Assembly (NCBI GenBank): GCA_015654595.1
Contig: JAATGQ010000001.1
Span: 1-64,000, forward strand
Source of the DNA: Chitinophagales bacterium
GTDB taxonomy: Bacteria > Bacteroidota > Bacteroidia > Chitinophagales > Chitinophagaceae
Length of the DNA stretch: 64,000 nt
Direction of reading: 5' to 3'
Within the stretch, counting starts at the first letter, position 1; every line of letters starts with the position of its first letter. Both the position numbers and the translations under genes were made by a program. Below are positions 217 through 6,755 of this stretch, in pieces. The notes below the pieces were generated by a model. It was not told the DNA's origin and made no database searches. It saw only the letters and a list, made by a program, of their open reading frames with translations.

Positions 217-1794
217 TTAATCCCGCAGTAGACAATTCTTTTTTATGGCTTTTCTTAAAATGGCTCGATGTTTACTAATCTGCTTTATTATAGCTGGTTC
301 CTCCATGATTTCCGCGGCGCGAGCGACATATCGAAGGTAGTTGGTCTTATGCTTGACCTCTTCTCTACTAGAAAGAGTGATATAGCCACCGTGATCGTTA
401 GGTACAATTTTGATAAATCTTCGTGTGGGCTGTGTTTTGGACAAATCTAAGATCGTATATTGTCGATACAATTGTCGATAGAAAAGCACTGGAGCAGCAT
501 CGGCATTCTGTTCAGCAATTTTTTGAGCCCTTATACATTTGCGTCTGGCTGCTTTAATCATCCGGCGGTAAAACTTCGCCAAATTGGCGCTTTTTATACC
601 TGTTCTAAAGCCAAAAAATTCGAATCCTAAATATGTTAGCGGAATTCCAGGCACCCATTTCTCATCCACCCATTTTGCTGATACAATTTGATTCCCCAAT
701 TTTTAATCATGGCTCATTTTAAATTGAAACACCTCCGTTTTATCATTGCTCAATGAAACATTACTTTCTTCGATGGTTTGTTGTACCAATTGTCGGAAAT
801 CGTTCATCTGTTCTGGCTCGCAAACTATAATAATATCATCTGAATATCTACGATAAAGCCCGTGTTCTTTTGTTAATTCGAGCATTTTTATATCAAAGTC
901 CATCAAATATAGATTCGCCAATACGGAACTAATCGGCAGTCCCTGTGGAATCCCATGAATACGTTTTGTTTTTTTGTCTCTAAAGGGATATTTGTAGACA
1001 CGGATCTTCTTCGATTTTATTGACTGTCGGAAATCAGCAGGGGATTCAAAAAAAGCCTGTTGTCCCAATTCATTTCTAATTCGGGCTAATTTTCTTTCAT
1101 CAAACCCACTTCTTTTGGTGTATTTTGACGCGGGTTGCGAAATCCTCAAATCGCCTTTCAGAATATAAGAAAATTTCGTGGTAGCTTGAAACACATTGAA
1201 ATGAGCTGGCGGAAGTCGCCCGTTGTCGGGAAAGAGTGCCATCCACTTCGTTTTTAATAGATTGTGATCCATCCGGTTAAAGAAACTTTCAATGTCGAAC
1301 TTTAGTACAACTACCGGACGCGCCGATGCCCGTTCTTTTACATATTGAAACACTTCATGTGCAAAGTGAATGGTTCCCTTATTTCGTTTTTCGCCAGGGA
1401 TTGGCAATTTCCTATAAGCAGTTATACACTCCGTCAAACCTAGATGATTGTCTAATTCTTTTTCATAACGTTCACTTATAATATGGGCGTAATACCCGAA
1501 AATAAGCGCGTCCATATGGGTAGCATAGTGAAGAGGTCGTTCTTTAGCGTTGGCCACAACCTTTCCTCTTTTCTCTTTAGTATGATATCGCTTATTTTCC
1601 CTTTGCGGATCCTTTCTATATCTCCGCTCTACGATAACTGAGTGAATCAACGGATAGAACGAATAACCGGCAACAAAATCCGGGCTAGTAATTTTTCCTA
1701 TTAGTTCGCCCCTACGCTTTAAAACGTTTATTTTGGGCGTTATGTGCAGATACCCTTTGCTCTTTAGCCAAGGATACTCTTCCAAATTTATCAT
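217..1794 (-). pseudogene. DRT2-like (UG-group) reverse transcriptase, split by an in-frame TAA
   Basis: The first part (1794 to 703, 363 aa) has a KGYLHIT motif near residue 13, a conserved THMDALIFGYYAH block near 92-104, motif A with Asp at 167 (FDIESFF), GIPQGLPISS near 281-290 and the catalytic YSDD at 317-320. A TAA at 705-703 then interrupts the frame. The same frame continues from 702 to 217 with LTYLGFEFFG (motif E and thumb) and a basic C-terminal region, so the unbroken protein would be about 524 aa. The N-terminal layout resembles antiviral UG2/DRT2 reverse transcriptases rather than retron or group II intron enzymes; this is from memory of the family, not a search. Retron NAxxH/VTG and maturase features are not seen. 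The catalytic part may still be made alone, or a TTG at 699 may restart the C-terminal part. A structured RNA lies directly upstream. Confidence 0.72.
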
Positions 1795-1800
1795 AAAAAA

Positions 1801-2135
1801 GGACCTTGCAAATGTTTAACGTAAATACGTCGACGACATACGCTCTTGCGAGCCAGGACTGTTACCCATATTCATGAGTCACGATTTGGTTGAAATTGTG
1901 ACGTTATCTTCAAACTAATCATCTCTACAATGCTTACTCTACTATTGTCTGTTAATGCGTCAGGTATCCTGCCCCTTCGGCTGGAGGTGGTCTCAGCATC
2001 GCTGCTAAGGATCGCGCCCCCGCCCGAAAGCTGGCATGGTAATACCTCTCCTTTGCCTGTTCACCGTCTCCGGTGGCAAAGTCAGGCCGAAGCCCTTACG
2101 GTCCATTCCAGATGTTGGTCAACGTTGCAAGGTCC
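1801..2135 (-). ncRNA. Candidate structured RNA template for the adjacent reverse transcriptase
   Basis: An 11-bp perfect inverted repeat, GGACCTTGCAA at 1801-1811 and TTGCAAGGTCC at 2125-2135, closes a 335-nt segment that ends 6 nt before the reverse transcriptase ATG (1794). Inside are a bulged hairpin at 2051-2081 (CTTTGC/GCAAAG plus CACCG/CGGTG), a cUUCGg-type hairpin at 2084-2095 on the minus strand, CAGC/GCTG at 1994-2004, CAGG/CCTG at 1961-1971, a 9-10 bp hairpin at 1878-1902 and GCTC/GAGC at 1842-1853. The middle is visibly GC-rich against AT-rich flanks. A TAATTTTG box lies just upstream, placing the predicted transcript start near 2132-2135, at the repeat. Established DRT2 systems have such an RNA upstream of the enzyme. 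That this RNA is the template is inference. Confidence 0.5.
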
Positions 2136-2138
2136 AAT

Positions 2139-2146
2139 CAAAATTA
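2139..2146 (-). promoter_or_regulatory. Bacteroidota -7 promoter box (TAnnTTTG) for the RNA/reverse transcriptase
   Basis: On the minus strand this reads TAATTTTG, an exact match to the Bacteroidota TAnnTTTG -7 element. Transcription would begin about 4-7 nt downstream, at the outer edge of the inverted repeat that closes the candidate RNA. No clear -33 TTTG box was found at the usual distance. Confidence 0.5.
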
Positions 2147-2188: not shown

Positions 2189-2848
2189 ATGTTCAACATA
2201 GGAGATATCGTCGCCTTCAACACCCACCCCTTTTTCGCCGGTCACACTGATATTGTGCTAGCCGGTGATCCACTACAACAGTCCCCGTTAATGATCATCA
2301 CCGAAGAAAAAAACATTACGCTTAGTGCAGATAAAGGACATAAAAAAAAGGGGGATTCCTTCACTCACTATAAATGCTGCTGGTATTCTGCCACCACCCA
2401 TAGATTTGAATTCGCTTGGTTCGATCCTCACCAATTGAAGCTAATCGAGCCACTGCCTCCTAACTTTGATACAGTACCAGCTATTGGCTGTAACGTGATA
2501 TTTAGGACCGCCAGAATAGAAACACAGAAAAAGAAAGGAAGCATACAATATGGAACTGGTATGGCCACGGAAGATCATCTCGGACTGAAAAGTCTTATGT
2601 CCTTTGTTAGCCCGGTCATGCACGTGATCGGATATCCCAGCAATAACGGAAAGTCGGATAAAAAACAAACTGCCACATTGCCTGCTTTTCCGCTTGTAAA
2701 GGTTAAATGGTTCAATCTGGGGGCTGATAAATATAGCGAGGCCGAACTTCCATTGTCATGCCTGGAAAAATTACCCCCGTTTGACACAGAAAAAATAGCA
2801 GCTATAAAAAATTCAATTGCGGCAAAGTTATCTAAAAATAAACATTGA
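2189..2848 (+). CDS. Hypothetical protein, first gene of a divergent two-gene cassette
   Basis: The protein starts MFNIGDIVAFNTHPFF; an in-frame upstream ATG at 2165 would add eight residues but sits closer to the minus-strand promoter. It is about 219 aa, with no signal peptide or membrane segment. The N-terminal GDIVAF...VLAGD pattern looks like a small beta-barrel (SH3/KOW-like) fold, which is inference only. The C-terminus is Lys-rich. It is divergent from the candidate RNA and reverse transcriptase, and its end overlaps the next gene, so the two plus-strand genes are probably co-transcribed. I do not recognise a named family. Because of its position it could be an accessory gene of the reverse-transcriptase system or an unrelated island gene. 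Confidence 0.6.
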   Translation: MFNIGDIVAFNTHPFFAGHTDIVLAGDPLQQSPLMIITEEKNITLSADKGHKKKGDSFTHYKCCWYSATTHRFEFAWFDPHQLKLIEPLPPNFDTVPAIGCNVIFRTARIETQKKKGSIQYGTGMATEDHLGLKSLMSFVSPVMHVIGYPSNNGKSDKKQTATLPAFPLVKVKWFNLGADKYSEAELPLSCLEKLPPFDTEKIAAIKNSIAAKLSKNKH

Positions 2849-3275
2849 CACCACGATTACCATCATCCAACCTCTTCTCATTGCTTGCTTAAATGGGACC
2901 TATCTTCTACGCTTCTTCGATGTAGTCACCAATAGGATTTCATGTGGCATTCTTATTGATTCCGTTCAAATATTGACTGAGCTTACTCAAGTTTATACGG
3001 AAAGGGCGCCAACTTTCGACTATAGCACCGGCAGTAAGCCGACGTTATTTCCAGGTGATTTGATCATGAAAAATCCCAAAAAGATTATCAGAATAAAATA
3101 TGAAAATAGGCACCAGGCTGTATCCGTTCGCTGTATTAAGGATTTTTCATTGTATGACGTCACGGAAGAAGGCGGAAAGAAAGAAACATATTTACAAGGT
3201 ATATGTTTGTCAAAAAAAGACACCAGAACATTCAAGGTTTCCAGTATTGAATGGGTTGAAATTATTAACCTATAA
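2817..3275 (+). CDS. Small protein with a WYL-like C-terminal half
   Basis: This is 152 aa if read from the TTG at 2817, which overlaps the previous gene by 32 bp. Other non-ATG starts closer to 2840 are possible, since no ATG is available near the junction. The C-terminal 65 residues, with IRIKYENRH, then YLQGICLSKKDTRTFKV and SIEWVEII, follow the strand pattern of WYL domains. These are Sm-like sensor modules common in regulators of defence loci and CRISPR. No HTH is visible in the short N-terminus, so it would be a WYL-only protein. The assignment is by pattern and is moderate at best. The overlap with the gene before it implies translational coupling. Confidence 0.5.
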   Translation: MRQSYLKINIDTTITIIQPLLIACLNGTYLLRFFDVVTNRISCGILIDSVQILTELTQVYTERAPTFDYSTGSKPTLFPGDLIMKNPKKIIRIKYENRHQAVSVRCIKDFSLYDVTEEGGKKETYLQGICLSKKDTRTFKVSSIEWVEIINL

Positions 3276-3474: not shown

Positions 3475-3705
3475 ATGAAAATAAGTATTATAGACAGCTA
3501 TATGATGTTTCTTCAAACACTTCGCCCTGATGCAAGGCGGGCTTTGATCTCAAAGCTTACACAGAGCCTTAAATCCGAACCGAAGAAACCCAAGAATCTG
3601 TTCGCTAAATCTTTCGGAGCCTGGGTAGGCAATGAATCTGCCGACGACATCGTAAAAGAAATAAAAGATAGCCGATCTTTTAGCCGGCAAATTGAGGAAC
3701 TGTGA
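3475..3705 (+). CDS. vapB: VapB-type antitoxin
   Basis: This 76-aa protein has a basic middle (KSEPKKPKNLFAKSFGAW) and the C-terminal pattern SADDIVKEIKDSRSFSRQIEEL. That tail is typical of small antitoxins that pair with PIN-domain toxins and wrap around the toxin's acidic site. Its stop codon overlaps the GTG start of the downstream toxin by 4 bp (GTGA), the classic type II toxin-antitoxin arrangement. The N-terminal DNA-binding part is short and not clearly AbrB or RHH. The complex normally represses its own promoter, which should lie in the AT-rich 3300-3470 stretch. No operator was identified. Confidence 0.78.
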   Translation: MKISIIDSYMMFLQTLRPDARRALISKLTQSLKSEPKKPKNLFAKSFGAWVGNESADDIVKEIKDSRSFSRQIEEL

Positions 3706-4100
3706 AGCAGTATCTTTTAGATACAAATATTTGTATCTTTTTCATGAAAGGACTATTCGGGTTAGGTACGAAACTCGAAAGCGCAGGAACTGACAATTGT
3801 TTTATTTCGGAAATCACTCTCGCAGAATTAAAGTTTGGTGTTGAAAATAGCCAGAACAAAGAAAAGAACCTGGTTGCTCTCGGCAACTTTTTAACAGGTG
3901 TCATCGTCATCCCTATATTTCCCAGCCTAGATGTTTACGCAAAAGTAAAGGCAAGGCTAAGAAAGGCCGGGCAGCCGATTGACGATTTTGATCTTTTGAT
4001 CGGAGCTACAGCTATTTCAAACGATCTTATTTTGATAACCAATAACGTAAGTCATTTGGGAAGAATGCAGGGGATCAAAATTGAAGATTGGACGAAATGA
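3702..4100 (+). CDS. vapC: VapC-type PIN-domain ribonuclease toxin
   Basis: This 132-aa PIN-domain protein shows the acidic residues expected for a metal-dependent ribonuclease: Asp in LLDTNICIFF (residue 6), Glu in SEITLAELKFG (about residue 41) and Asp in DFDLLIGATAI (near residue 98). VapC toxins cut tRNA or rRNA and stop translation until neutralised by VapB. Length is normal for the family and all motifs are present, so it is probably functional. It starts at GTG, overlapping the antitoxin stop by 4 bp. It lies between the reverse-transcriptase cassette and IS66, which fits a mobile island. Confidence 0.87.
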   Translation: MKQYLLDTNICIFFMKGLFGLGTKLESAGTDNCFISEITLAELKFGVENSQNKEKNLVALGNFLTGVIVIPIFPSLDVYAKVKARLRKAGQPIDDFDLLIGATAISNDLILITNNVSHLGRMQGIKIEDWTK

Positions 4101-4596: not shown

Positions 4597-6075
4597 TTAT
4601 CCATTAGGGAGAAGTTCGCAGATTTTATTGATGGAGTGTGAGGGGATATTTTCCAGTACGCCTTTAAGCCAGTTGAATGGATTGATTCCGCGAAGCTTAC
4701 AAGTTCCCAGGAGCGAGTACAACATGGCGCTCCGTTGTGCAGCTTCATGGCTTCCGGCAAAGAGATAATTTTTTCGGCCTACGGCAACGGGCCTGATGGC
4801 GTTCTCCACCGGATTGTTGTCGATATTTAGTTTCCCATCGGTAGTATATATCATTAGGTGCGTCCACCGCTCCATACTATAAGCAAGCGCTTTGCCAATG
4901 GCGCTTTTAGGCAATACTTCGATGTAAGTCTGCTGCATCCATTTACCCAGGGCTTCCAGGATAGGTACCGCTTCCTGTTGGCGTAGTTGCAGTACCTGCT
5001 CGTGGCTCAACTGCTGATCGGCAACCCGTCGTTCTATGGCATAGAGCAACTGGAACTGGGACAGGGCATATTCTGCACGACCGGCATCATTGAGCTGCGC
5101 CTCTACAAACTTCCTTCGGGCATGGGCCATACAATGCAATAGGGTAACATCCTTCTGCTGGTCGAAGATGTTGTAGGCCGCATAGCCATCCCTTTGAAGG
5201 TGTCCTTTAAAGTCTTTGAGCATTTCCAAAGGCCCTTCTCTTCCTCTGCCTGGCTGGTAATTGAAGAGCACCAGGTCCTGCAGGCTGTTGTGATACACCC
5301 AGAAATAGCCCCGATGGGTCTCTCCCTTCTTATCCTTGTCCAGCACTTTGATGGGCGTCTCATCGGCATGCAAATAATCGCTGGCCATTACCTCTTTGGC
5401 AAGGGCCTCATATAAGGGGGTGATCAGTTTGCAGGTATTGCTGACCCAATCGGTAATGCTGCTGTAGGGGATGTTTGTCTTTTCACGGCTAAAGCGCTGT
5501 TGCTACCGATGCAAGGGTAGATGATCCACAAATTTGTCAATTACGATCTGCGCTAATAATCCCGGGCCGGCTATGGCTTTCGGTAAAGGTCTTTCCGGCA
5601 TAGGGGCGATCAGGATCGTTTGAGTATCCGGGCTGACATAATTGGGACGTACAAAGCGATTCACATATAACTTTCCAGGCTGATATTCCAGTTCTTCGGT
5701 GATCTCCTGACCGATTTGGCGACTGCCTTCCGGATGATCCACGTCGACCAGGATCTCTTTGCGTTCCAGGTGTTCCGGCAGCTTCATACGCCCCGGATGG
5801 GAGGTTGCGGAATTGGTCAGTATACTTTGAGACCGGGTGTATCCGATCTTTTTAGCCTTAACCAACGAGGTAGCGGCTACCGCCTCTGATTCCAGTCCCA
5901 TTGCCAGCTGAGCAGGGTCTGCGACATTAGCTACAAAGCGTTCCTGCCGGGCACCAAAGATCATCTTCTTAAGCTGGTCCAGTTCCTGCCGCAGCTGCAG
6001 GATATCGAGTTGGGATTGCTTGTATAGGGCTTTGTAATCAATATGTGCGGTGAGGAGCTCCATGTGCGGGAGCAA
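4597..6075 (-). pseudogene. tnpC: IS66 transposase TnpC, interrupted by an in-frame TAG
   Basis: The N-terminal part (6075 to 5503) has the leucine-rich coiled coil and MIFGARQERF motif of IS66 TnpC. After LPLHR the frame meets TAG at 5505-5503. The same frame then continues QQRFSREKTNIPYSS and on to the catalytic part: Asp in HADETPIKV, Asp in QRDGYAAYN, Glu in NPVENAIRPVAVGRKNYLFAGS, and the Leu-rich C-terminus. The lost residue was probably Gln (CAG to TAG), since related enzymes have PLYRQ here. Without suppression the DDE domain could only be made from an internal start. Total length, about 490 residues, is normal. Confidence 0.85.
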
Positions 6076-6077
6076 AT

Positions 6078-6482
6078 CTACTGAAAAGGGCTTACAGTAA
6101 GCGTTCTTGCAGGATCGTTATCAACAATTTGGCCTCCATGTTGATATCTTTTTCGTTTGCGAACATGCCGAAGACTGATCCTTTTTAGCAATAACAGGAG
6201 TTGGTCAGCTTCTATGCTTATAGCTGTTTCAGTAGCTGAAAAGGCAGGCAGTTCATAACTGCCTTTTTCAAGGCGTTTATGATACAGAGAGAACCCATCG
6301 CCTTCCCATAACAGAAACTTGACCTGGTTATGTCGGCGGTTCAGGAAAATAAACACCGCACCACACAGCGGATCTTTGTTTAATTCACTTTGTACAAGTC
6401 CGGATAATCCGTTGAAGCTCTTTCTCATATTGACCGGCTTACGATACAGATAGTACCGGCAGGAGGTAGAAAGGTGCAACAC
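6078..6482 (-). CDS. tnpB: IS66 accessory protein TnpB
   Basis: This 134-aa protein has the hallmarks of the IS66 Orf2 family: YLYRKPVNMRKSFNGLSGLV near the start and FIFLNRRHNQVKFLLWEGDGF in the middle. It is required for transposition of IS66 elements although its biochemical role is unclear. It is 2 bases from tnpC and 3 bases from tnpA, so the three are one transcription unit. Length is a little above the usual 115 aa because of a C-terminal extension. Confidence 0.9.
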   Translation of the reverse strand: MLHLSTSCRYYLYRKPVNMRKSFNGLSGLVQSELNKDPLCGAVFIFLNRRHNQVKFLLWEGDGFSLYHKRLEKGSYELPAFSATETAISIEADQLLLLLKRISLRHVRKRKRYQHGGQIVDNDPARTLTVSPFQ

Positions 6483-6485
6483 GGC

Positions 6486-6755
6486 CTAAAACAGGAGGCT
6501 TTTCAAATACGATACACTCACCGATTCATGGAAAACAACCCGGGTCCCATCCGGACAAACTACTTCACAGACCGATGAACTGGATGCTGGTTTTACGGTC
6601 AGGCTGACAAAATCCTGATTGGCTGCCATAACAGCCTGAGACTTACGGTACTGGCCGTACCAATAGTGGAAAATATGATAGGCAACATGTTGCTCACTAC
6701 ACCATATTTTCTGGGACTGCCCGCTCTGTTTCCAGACTTCAATCTTTTTGAACAT
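6486..6755 (-). CDS. tnpA: IS66 accessory protein TnpA
   Basis: This 89-aa protein reads MFKKIEVWKQSGQSQKIWC, a helix-turn-helix beginning typical of IS66 Orf1, and ends with VVCPDGTRVVFHESVSVSYLKSLL, the usual family tail. A stop codon lies nine codons upstream in the same frame, so the ATG at 6755 is the likely start. It is the first gene of the IS66 unit. The 270 bases upstream (6756-7026) hold no convincing gene and probably include the right end of the element. Confidence 0.8.
   Translation of the reverse strand: MFKKIEVWKQSGQSQKIWCSEQHVAYHIFHYWYGQYRKSQAVMAANQDFVSLTVKPASSSSVCEVVCPDGTRVVFHESVSVSYLKSLLF

Follow-up and report, generated by a model that had tools for sequence, protein, structure and literature searches.

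The locus at the start of the window (the whole 64,000-nt stretch of DNA analysed here) is very probably a Bacteroidota DRT2 phage-defence locus, itself probably decaying, with an RNA-templated neo-repeat mechanism. Its reverse transcriptase (RT) belongs, by sequence profile, to the Drt2 (UG2) family and not to the retron or group II intron RTs. Compensating sequence changes preserve the upstream RNA together with its terminal stem, and the complementary strand of the RNA middle appears to carry a never-ending open reading frame (ORF), which is new here. Comparison among related loci supports the RT family, the conserved RNA fold, the in-frame circular ORF and the linkage to a partner gene, and the clade of the window is a new variant of DRT2. 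In the literature collection searched, no paper names DRT2 together with Bacteroidota or Bacteroidetes, and one review (PMC12593503) reportedly mentions both DRT2 and Flavobacterium.

On the minus strand, the frame between 1794 and 217 is one RT gene in two pieces, separated by a single in-frame TAA. The RT gene placed at 217-1794 by an earlier sequence-only reading is therefore a Drt2 frame as proposed, but an interrupted one:

706-1794, minus strand: N-terminal piece of the RT, Drt2/UG2, 363 codons, palm with YSDD
703-705, minus strand: in-frame TAA splitting the RT gene between palm and thumb
217-702, minus strand: continuation of the RT gene in the same frame, thumb part, Drt2 profile positions 374-466

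That reading had called the enzyme a DRT2-like RT of a Bacteroidota relative and suggested a profile search, which bears it out: the 363-residue piece matches PADLOC PDLC03757 (Drt2) with E 1.7e-97 and 325.5 bits, and NF041746 (Drt2) with E 8.2e-78 and 262.4 bits, and these Drt2 models match the 160-residue continuation with their C-terminal portion. The split RT scores below the NCBI cut-off of 390 bits, as do all 148 genomes scanned. The catalytic YxDD motif is present as YSDD in the window RT and in three aligned homologs, the nearest solved chains are Drt2 (e.g. 9c0i_A), and a search of the window's genome with the RT piece gave one match.

Relatives were collected with an alignment scan of one-per-species genome contigs, keeping the best 80 of 313 loci; with seven further hits and the window this gave 88 upstream regions, which include duplicates (L099 repeats L008, and L097 repeats L005). 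The loci were recruited by similarity to the window, and the set is biased to the window's own clades. Scanning genome contigs with a single protein yielded no confirmed relative. Nor did a scan of IMG/VR, and we therefore claim no viral carrier.

Directly upstream of the RT gene the window holds the following RNA parts, from 5' to 3':

2139-2146, minus strand: box TAATTTTG, part of the probable ncRNA promoter, stopping 3 nt short of the stem
1801-2135, minus strand: DRT2 ncRNA, 335 nt from stem end to stem end
2125-2135, minus strand: terminal stem P1, 5' arm, TTGCAAGGTCC
2112-2125, minus strand: inner helix P2, 5' arm (approximate register in the window)
2101-2104, minus strand: helix P3, 5' arm, GGAC
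2051-2081, minus strand: 5'-handle hairpin P4, CTTTGCC / GGCAAAG
1879-1883, minus strand: pseudoknot arm 1, CGTGA, directly 3' of the template
1864-1879, minus strand: hairpin P5, ACTCAT / ATGGGT
1856-1859, minus strand: helix P3, 3' arm, GTCC
1827-1839, minus strand: inner helix P2, 3' arm (approximate register in the window)
1820-1824, minus strand: pseudoknot arm 2, TTACG
1801-1811, minus strand: terminal stem P1, 3' arm, GGACCTTGCAA, followed by UUUUUU at 1795-1800

The 11-bp stem described earlier between 1801-1811 and 2125-2135 pairs perfectly, and P1 would bring together the two ends of the 335-nt RNA, whose 5' end we infer at about 2135 (minus strand). The spacing claimed on either side is also correct: the box TAATTTTG, which we take to be a Bacteroidota promoter of the TAnnTTTG type, lies 3 nt before the stem, and six nucleotides, TTTTTT, separate the 3' arm from the RT ATG at 1794 (minus strand). 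The claim of at least six hairpins stands in part, since the conserved parts are the three long-range helices P1, P2 and P3, a short helix after P3, two hairpins (P4 and the ACTCA/TGGGT hairpin) and the pseudoknot. When 1795-2140 (minus strand) was folded, as that reading had suggested, its energy was lower than that of 100 out of 100 shuffles (z -3.72). The opposite strand also folds well (z -3.13), so that energy alone cannot choose the RNA strand. Rfam, at its gathering thresholds, recognised no known RNA in the window.

The fold was compared across loci by pairing each arm with its partner from the same locus or with arms from other loci, in 24 chosen RNAs. Same-locus arms fit better in all six helices, with z of 9.7 for P1, 10.7 for P2, 3.7 for P3, 9.1 for P4, 4.5 for P5 and 5.4 for the pseudoknot. 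Three of these RNAs (L064, L088 and L095) have no terminal stem, probably because the RT start was set too early and the 3' arm was cut off. The RNAalifold consensus of the same RNAs has 50 pairs, with standard pairing in 996 of 1154 cells and 36 pairs changed on both sides. P1 alone is paired in 185 of 204 cells, compared with 36-44% for slid controls, and all 10 of its pairs show changes on both sides, the compensating changes that the sequence-only reading had asked for in a covariance test. The support for the pseudoknot comes from the comparison of arms; with the register held fixed it is paired in 74 of 120 cells.

When 87 loci were searched bluntly for the stem, 64 of them reached p<=0.05 for P1 and the mean z was 3.96; with the 3' arm taken from another locus the mean z was -0.13, and 2 of the 87 exceeded z 2. 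The stem recurs at the same place upstream of Bacteroidota drt2 genes with differing sequences. Under our first stem-and-promoter rule 77 of the 88 loci gave a stem, and a TAnnTTT[GTA] box lies near it in 66 of the 77, a count to be read knowing that the stem choice itself had given a bonus to such boxes. Three drt2 loci on proteobacterial plasmids gave no significant P1. On a Persicobacter plasmid, a Bacteroidota drt2 of greater distance (L124) keeps a 13-bp terminal stem upstream of position 2501.

The middle of the RNA, between the P4 hairpin and the pseudoknot, carries the putative template:

2041-2043, minus strand: ATT at the 5' end of the template
1894-1896, minus strand: ATT directly 3' of the template, counterpart of ACA-2
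1897-2043, plus strand: neo repeat unit in the cDNA-strand reading, 147 nt (49 codons) that stay open over the repeat junction

The neo repeat of the window contains an ATG at 1930-1932 (plus strand), and an in-frame TGA at 1891-1893 sits immediately outside the template. Across 77 loci, two duplicates included, the longest stop-free run averaged 75.7 codons on the complementary strand; the sense strand averaged 53.1 and shuffled sequences 49.3. Marking the codons revealed ATT in phase at both ends of the RNA middle. We turned this into a fixed rule: an ATT after AGGN6, or else AGGN7, and a second ATT 13-19 nt before a conserved G[ATG][CT]TCA. The rule was drawn up after looking at the sequences and then applied to 87 loci; it found the anchor in 57 and both sites in 37, which leaves 20 anchored loci with an ATT site missing. 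The two ATTs are a multiple of three apart in 32 of the 37, where 12.3 would be expected; the other five were counted as misses, although several of them offer a choice of ATTs. All 32 in-frame loci have an open complementary circle, where dinucleotide shuffles give 2.3, and 9 of the same 32 have an open sense circle. The repeats take 18 different lengths from 102 to 213 nt, among them 141 nt in Runella limosa (L033), 195 nt in Mucilaginibacter gossypiicola (L047) and 198 nt in Chitinophagaceae bacterium 26-R-25 (L008/L099), all three intact relatives, and the distance from either ATT to the anchor follows no three-fold rule (16/13/8 and 15/14/8). These results agree with the earlier proposal that the locus is a relative of DRT2 systems, in which an upstream RNA is copied into repeated cDNA.

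A sister clade uses GTA as its triplet. Both sites lie where they usually do in 15 of the 19 loci inspected, and 12 of these 15 are in frame; all 12 are open on the cDNA strand and 2 on the sense strand. In the three misses (L102, L109 and L110) the distance is not a multiple of three, as with broken neo frames or another junction. Two loci depart from their clade's triplet at both template ends and stay in frame, L103 of the GTA clade with GTT and L050 of the ATT clade with ATC, as expected if the two triplets must match. A later set of 18 loci contained three with the ATT-clade anchor, two of which, L121 and L114 (the latter a near-copy of L046), have an in-frame, open circle; the third, L128, has no 5' site; L127 has the GTA-clade anchor and likewise no 5' site. 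As a control, ACA pairs 90-160 nt apart were sought in three proteobacterial plasmid drt2 loci: the Psychrobacter locus has one open circle, of 105 nt, and L125 and L126 (Rhizobium and Ketogulonicigenium) have no open ACA circle of 90-160 nt. A shared-word search over the 23 anchored loci that fail the rule or fit it badly turned up open, in-frame candidates in 22; with many competing words and no null, these are left out of our counts.

When the hand-drawn ATT and GTA groups are marked on the RT tree, each of them makes up one side of a branch (supports 99 and 100); 33 ungrouped rows may lie inside these groups. The window RT falls with the ATT group on a branch of 0.91, compared with a median of 0.21. 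By itself the neo frame of the window is ordinary: the longest antisense run has p 0.22 and the sense circle is open as well. Its template has a GC content of 50%, the highest of the 32 (median 32%), and its open frame therefore proves little alone.

The predicted Neo repeats are 34-71 residues long with a strongly hydrophobic stretch. Taking the best 17-residue Kyte-Doolittle mean as the measure and 1.6 as the threshold, 31 of the 32 loci exceed it in the neo frame, compared with 9 and 0 in the other two complementary frames, 2, 20 and 13 in the sense frames and 2 of 32 for the shuffled means. Substitutions by codon position in eight close pairs number 138/114/179, a modest third-position excess among pairs that are not independent. 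A Pfam scan of five repeats gave nothing better than E 0.15, and a PHROGs scan of three gave nothing up to E 0.1. AlphaFold models one Neo repeat as a single helix, with a weak pTM of 0.37.

The search for a neo promoter used a matrix built from 66 Bacteroidota ncRNA promoters, which other promoter types may escape. This matrix found no promoter across the repeat junction (mean z 0.34), and the half-circle away from the junction scored higher (1.38). When the whole circle was scanned, 14 of 32 loci reached p<0.05 on the cDNA strand versus 3 of 32 on the sense strand; the window, with p 0.315, is outside the 14. Boxes of the TAnnTTTG type lie whole inside the repeat, on the cDNA strand, in L085, L072, L059, L034, L008 and others. 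We treat these internal boxes as a lead only, for the conserved Ile-Phe codons could produce the same signal.

Next to the ncRNA, and divergent from it, lies a partner gene, in the window also in two pieces:

2189-2848, plus strand: 5' piece of the partner gene, YodC-like part
2820-3275, plus strand: 3' piece of the partner gene, WYL part, in another frame (frameshifted)

The interruption of both protein genes, the ATT rather than ACA template ends and the partner gene are features absent from the sequence-only reading. Profiles seeded from the two pieces match in 83 of the 88 loci recruited by similarity to the window, and the partner is absent from L002, L003, L004, L006 and L009. It points away from the ncRNA, with the opposite orientation in L108. 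In two genome samples, with at most four candidates scored per genome, the partner is held by 3 of 395 and 5 of 394 genomes, which are seven different genomes with the window's own counted once; it stands beside a drt2 RT in all seven, and no stand-alone copy was seen. RTs matching the window alignment occur in 12 and 12 genomes of these samples, and the more distant drt2 genes are thus without the partner. Four plasmid drt2 loci have none either, one of them from Bacteroidota (L124, in the stretch examined).

The seven partner proteins scanned match the DRT-associated PADLOC models RTasWYL-YodC (PDLC03787) and RTasYodC (PDLC03806), with E down to 3.4e-117, and three of them show a Pfam WYL domain. 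PADLOC's DRT models reportedly go back to Mestre et al.; what is seen here is that proteins of these same models are a near-constant neighbour of two Bacteroidota drt2 clades. The partner model (pLDDT 80.8) consists mostly of beta strands. Among the 50 fold matches listed are PafBC, BrxR, CapW and DriD, together with high-ranking SAWADEE and Tudor domains, and the sequence matches in the PDB are two AAA ATPases and PafBC/PafC over the C-terminal part, with a weak fifth match. The WYL domain is thus common to the partner and to the WYL proteins of defence and damage response (BrxR, CapW, PafBC, DriD) by Pfam, PDB sequence and fold, while the rest of the partner differs from them in its mostly beta-strand model, in which no DNA-binding HTH was recognised. 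In a literature search on YodC with reverse transcriptase or WYL, none of the matches listed held YodC. In these clades the partner accompanies the RT and, judging only from its WYL relatives, probably controls it; PafBC is reported to respond to single-stranded DNA (PMC11804915), which suggests by analogy that the partner may sense cDNA.

The likeness to the Neo system, DRT2 of Klebsiella pneumoniae, as described in the portions consulted of PMC11100668, PMC12039810 and PMC12596737, extends to the RT family, the ncRNA directly upstream, the same order of 5'-handle hairpin, template and pseudoknotted 3' domain, short identical triplets at both template ends, a repeat length that is a multiple of three and a stop-free, hydrophobic frame on the cDNA strand. 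In Klebsiella the pseudoknot pairs G155-C159 with G250-C254 (PMC12596737, in the part consulted), and the arms here occupy the same positions, one immediately following the template and the other close to the 3' end of the RNA. Klebsiella Neo is likewise biased to hydrophobic codons in the excerpts of PMC12039810. The triplets differ, being ACA in Klebsiella and ATT (window clade) or GTA (sister clade) here, and so do the repeats, 102-213 nt here as against 120 in Klebsiella and mostly 117, with several of 111 or 129, in its close kin (PMC12039810, same excerpts). The terminal stem also sets the Bacteroidota loci apart from the three proteobacterial ones, and the partner gene of 83 of the 88 loci contrasts with the single protein gene of Klebsiella DRT2. 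The consulted part of PMC12039810 describes a neo promoter rebuilt at the repeat junction; our loci, unlike Klebsiella, gave no promoter match there and have promoter-like boxes inside some repeats. The excerpts of the DRT2 discovery preprint state that the RNAs of divergent clades were predictable, call their Neo annotation 'more challenging' and suggest other mechanisms (PMC11100668).

In intact relatives, an RNA of roughly 290-450 nt would start at a TAnnTTTG-type promoter, and the terminal stem would join its two ends, with the 5'-handle hairpin and the pseudoknotted 3' domain framing a template of 102-213 nt. The RT would copy as far as the 5' end of the template. There the final cDNA bases, made on ATT (or on GTA in the sister clade), would re-pair with the identical triplet just 3' of the template, and the next round would start in register. 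Once made double-stranded, the tandem-repeat cDNA would offer a stop-free frame with a repeat length that is a multiple of three, and a hydrophobic, probably helical, Neo-type repeat protein would halt the infected cell, the RT probably being under the control of the partner with its YodC-like part and WYL domain. Template jumping, the second strand, Neo toxicity and the phage trigger we infer by analogy with Klebsiella DRT2.

Two other explanations of the RT and its RNA were weighed against this one. That the enzyme is a retron or group II intron RT beside an unrelated RNA would account for an RT adjoining a structured RNA closed by an inverted repeat, and the sequence-only reading had compared the locus with retrons. 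This is hardly credible given the profile scores: the best retron model reaches 51.5 bits against a cut-off of 235, and group II intron models 70.8 bits, whereas Drt2 reaches 262.4, about 190 bits or more above both, and the nearest solved structures are Drt2. The retron comparison is accordingly dropped. The RNA might also template repeat cDNA that acts as DNA, its open frame being a by-product of structure or composition. DRT9 and DRT10 offer a precedent, as class 2 UG RTs which make repeat cDNA from an associated RNA, although they belong to other RT families, and the parts consulted of PMC12632851 and PMC12483538 describe no coding role for their repeats. The missing promoter match across the junction and the sense frame rich in hydrophobic peaks (20 of 32) would also fit. 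A by-product would not be expected to combine 18 repeat lengths with multiples of three in 32 of 37 loci, or to open the complementary circle in 32 of 32 against 2.3 in shuffles and 9 on the sense strand; the GTA clade behaves likewise, no other frame has as many hydrophobic peaks as the neo frame (31 of 32), and the close pairs show the third-position excess (138/114/179). We consider DNA-acting repeats very improbable and retain the coding neo repeat.

The copy in the window is probably decaying and probably inactive, its RT carrying an in-frame stop and its partner a frameshift while the RNA fold and neo frame are intact; the lack of a good internal promoter and the remains of insertion sequences on both sides, identified by eye, point to decay as well. 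An IS66-like element lies at 4597-6755 (minus strand), with tnpA, tnpB and tnpC read by eye and tnpC split into 4597-5388 and 5503-6075. At the contig end, 1-66 (minus strand), an IS3-type transposase frame appears by eye to start, so that the locus lies between insertion sequences. Also by eye, two overlapping small genes at 3475-4100 (plus strand) look like a toxin-antitoxin pair, the second with a PIN domain (VapC-like). The stretch 8000-64000 is overlapped by 41 ORFs of at least 180 aa.

RT readings are full length in most of the 88 loci and short in four: in L053 the thumb is frameshifted late, in L081 codon 351 is an in-frame TAA and the remaining RT follows without a change of frame, in L060 a stop comes after 346 codons, 83 nt from the end of the contig, and in L009 the reading stops after 229 codons and nothing beyond matches. 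The stops of L081 and L060 lie a little upstream of the window's, all three falling within about 20 codons, at different codons, between palm and thumb. We read these three interruptions as decay, assembly error or a two-piece RT being the alternatives. A programmed RT stop was considered and rejected: of three stop-bearing RTs, the two besides the window's have the stop at the very C-terminus.

The window copy might still be functional, with lesions that are errors of a draft assembly (265 contigs, 87% complete) or with an RT that is read through or acts as a two-piece enzyme. In favour, neither lesion is large, RNA fold and neo frame are intact, and L081 and L060 are also interrupted between palm and thumb. 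We nevertheless think this unlikely, considering two lesions at one locus, the adjoining IS66-like element with its split tnpC, the long RT branch (0.91 versus a median of 0.21), the different codons of the three stops and the great majority of full-length RT readings; a decaying copy remains our preferred reading.

A bolder view, which we regard as quite doubtful, would see here a second form of de novo gene synthesis, with restart at ATT or GTA, a neo promoter whole inside the repeat, a membrane-seeking Neo, and gating by the WYL-YodC partner through sensing of single-stranded repeat cDNA. Altogether, two Bacteroidota clades obey one rule, in which a clade-specific triplet stands at the template ends and the circle is in frame, and cDNA junctions and Neo sequences are thereby predicted for 44 loci (32 and 12). 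RNA-templated gene creation thus becomes testable in Bacteroidota, where it is tied to a partner gene.
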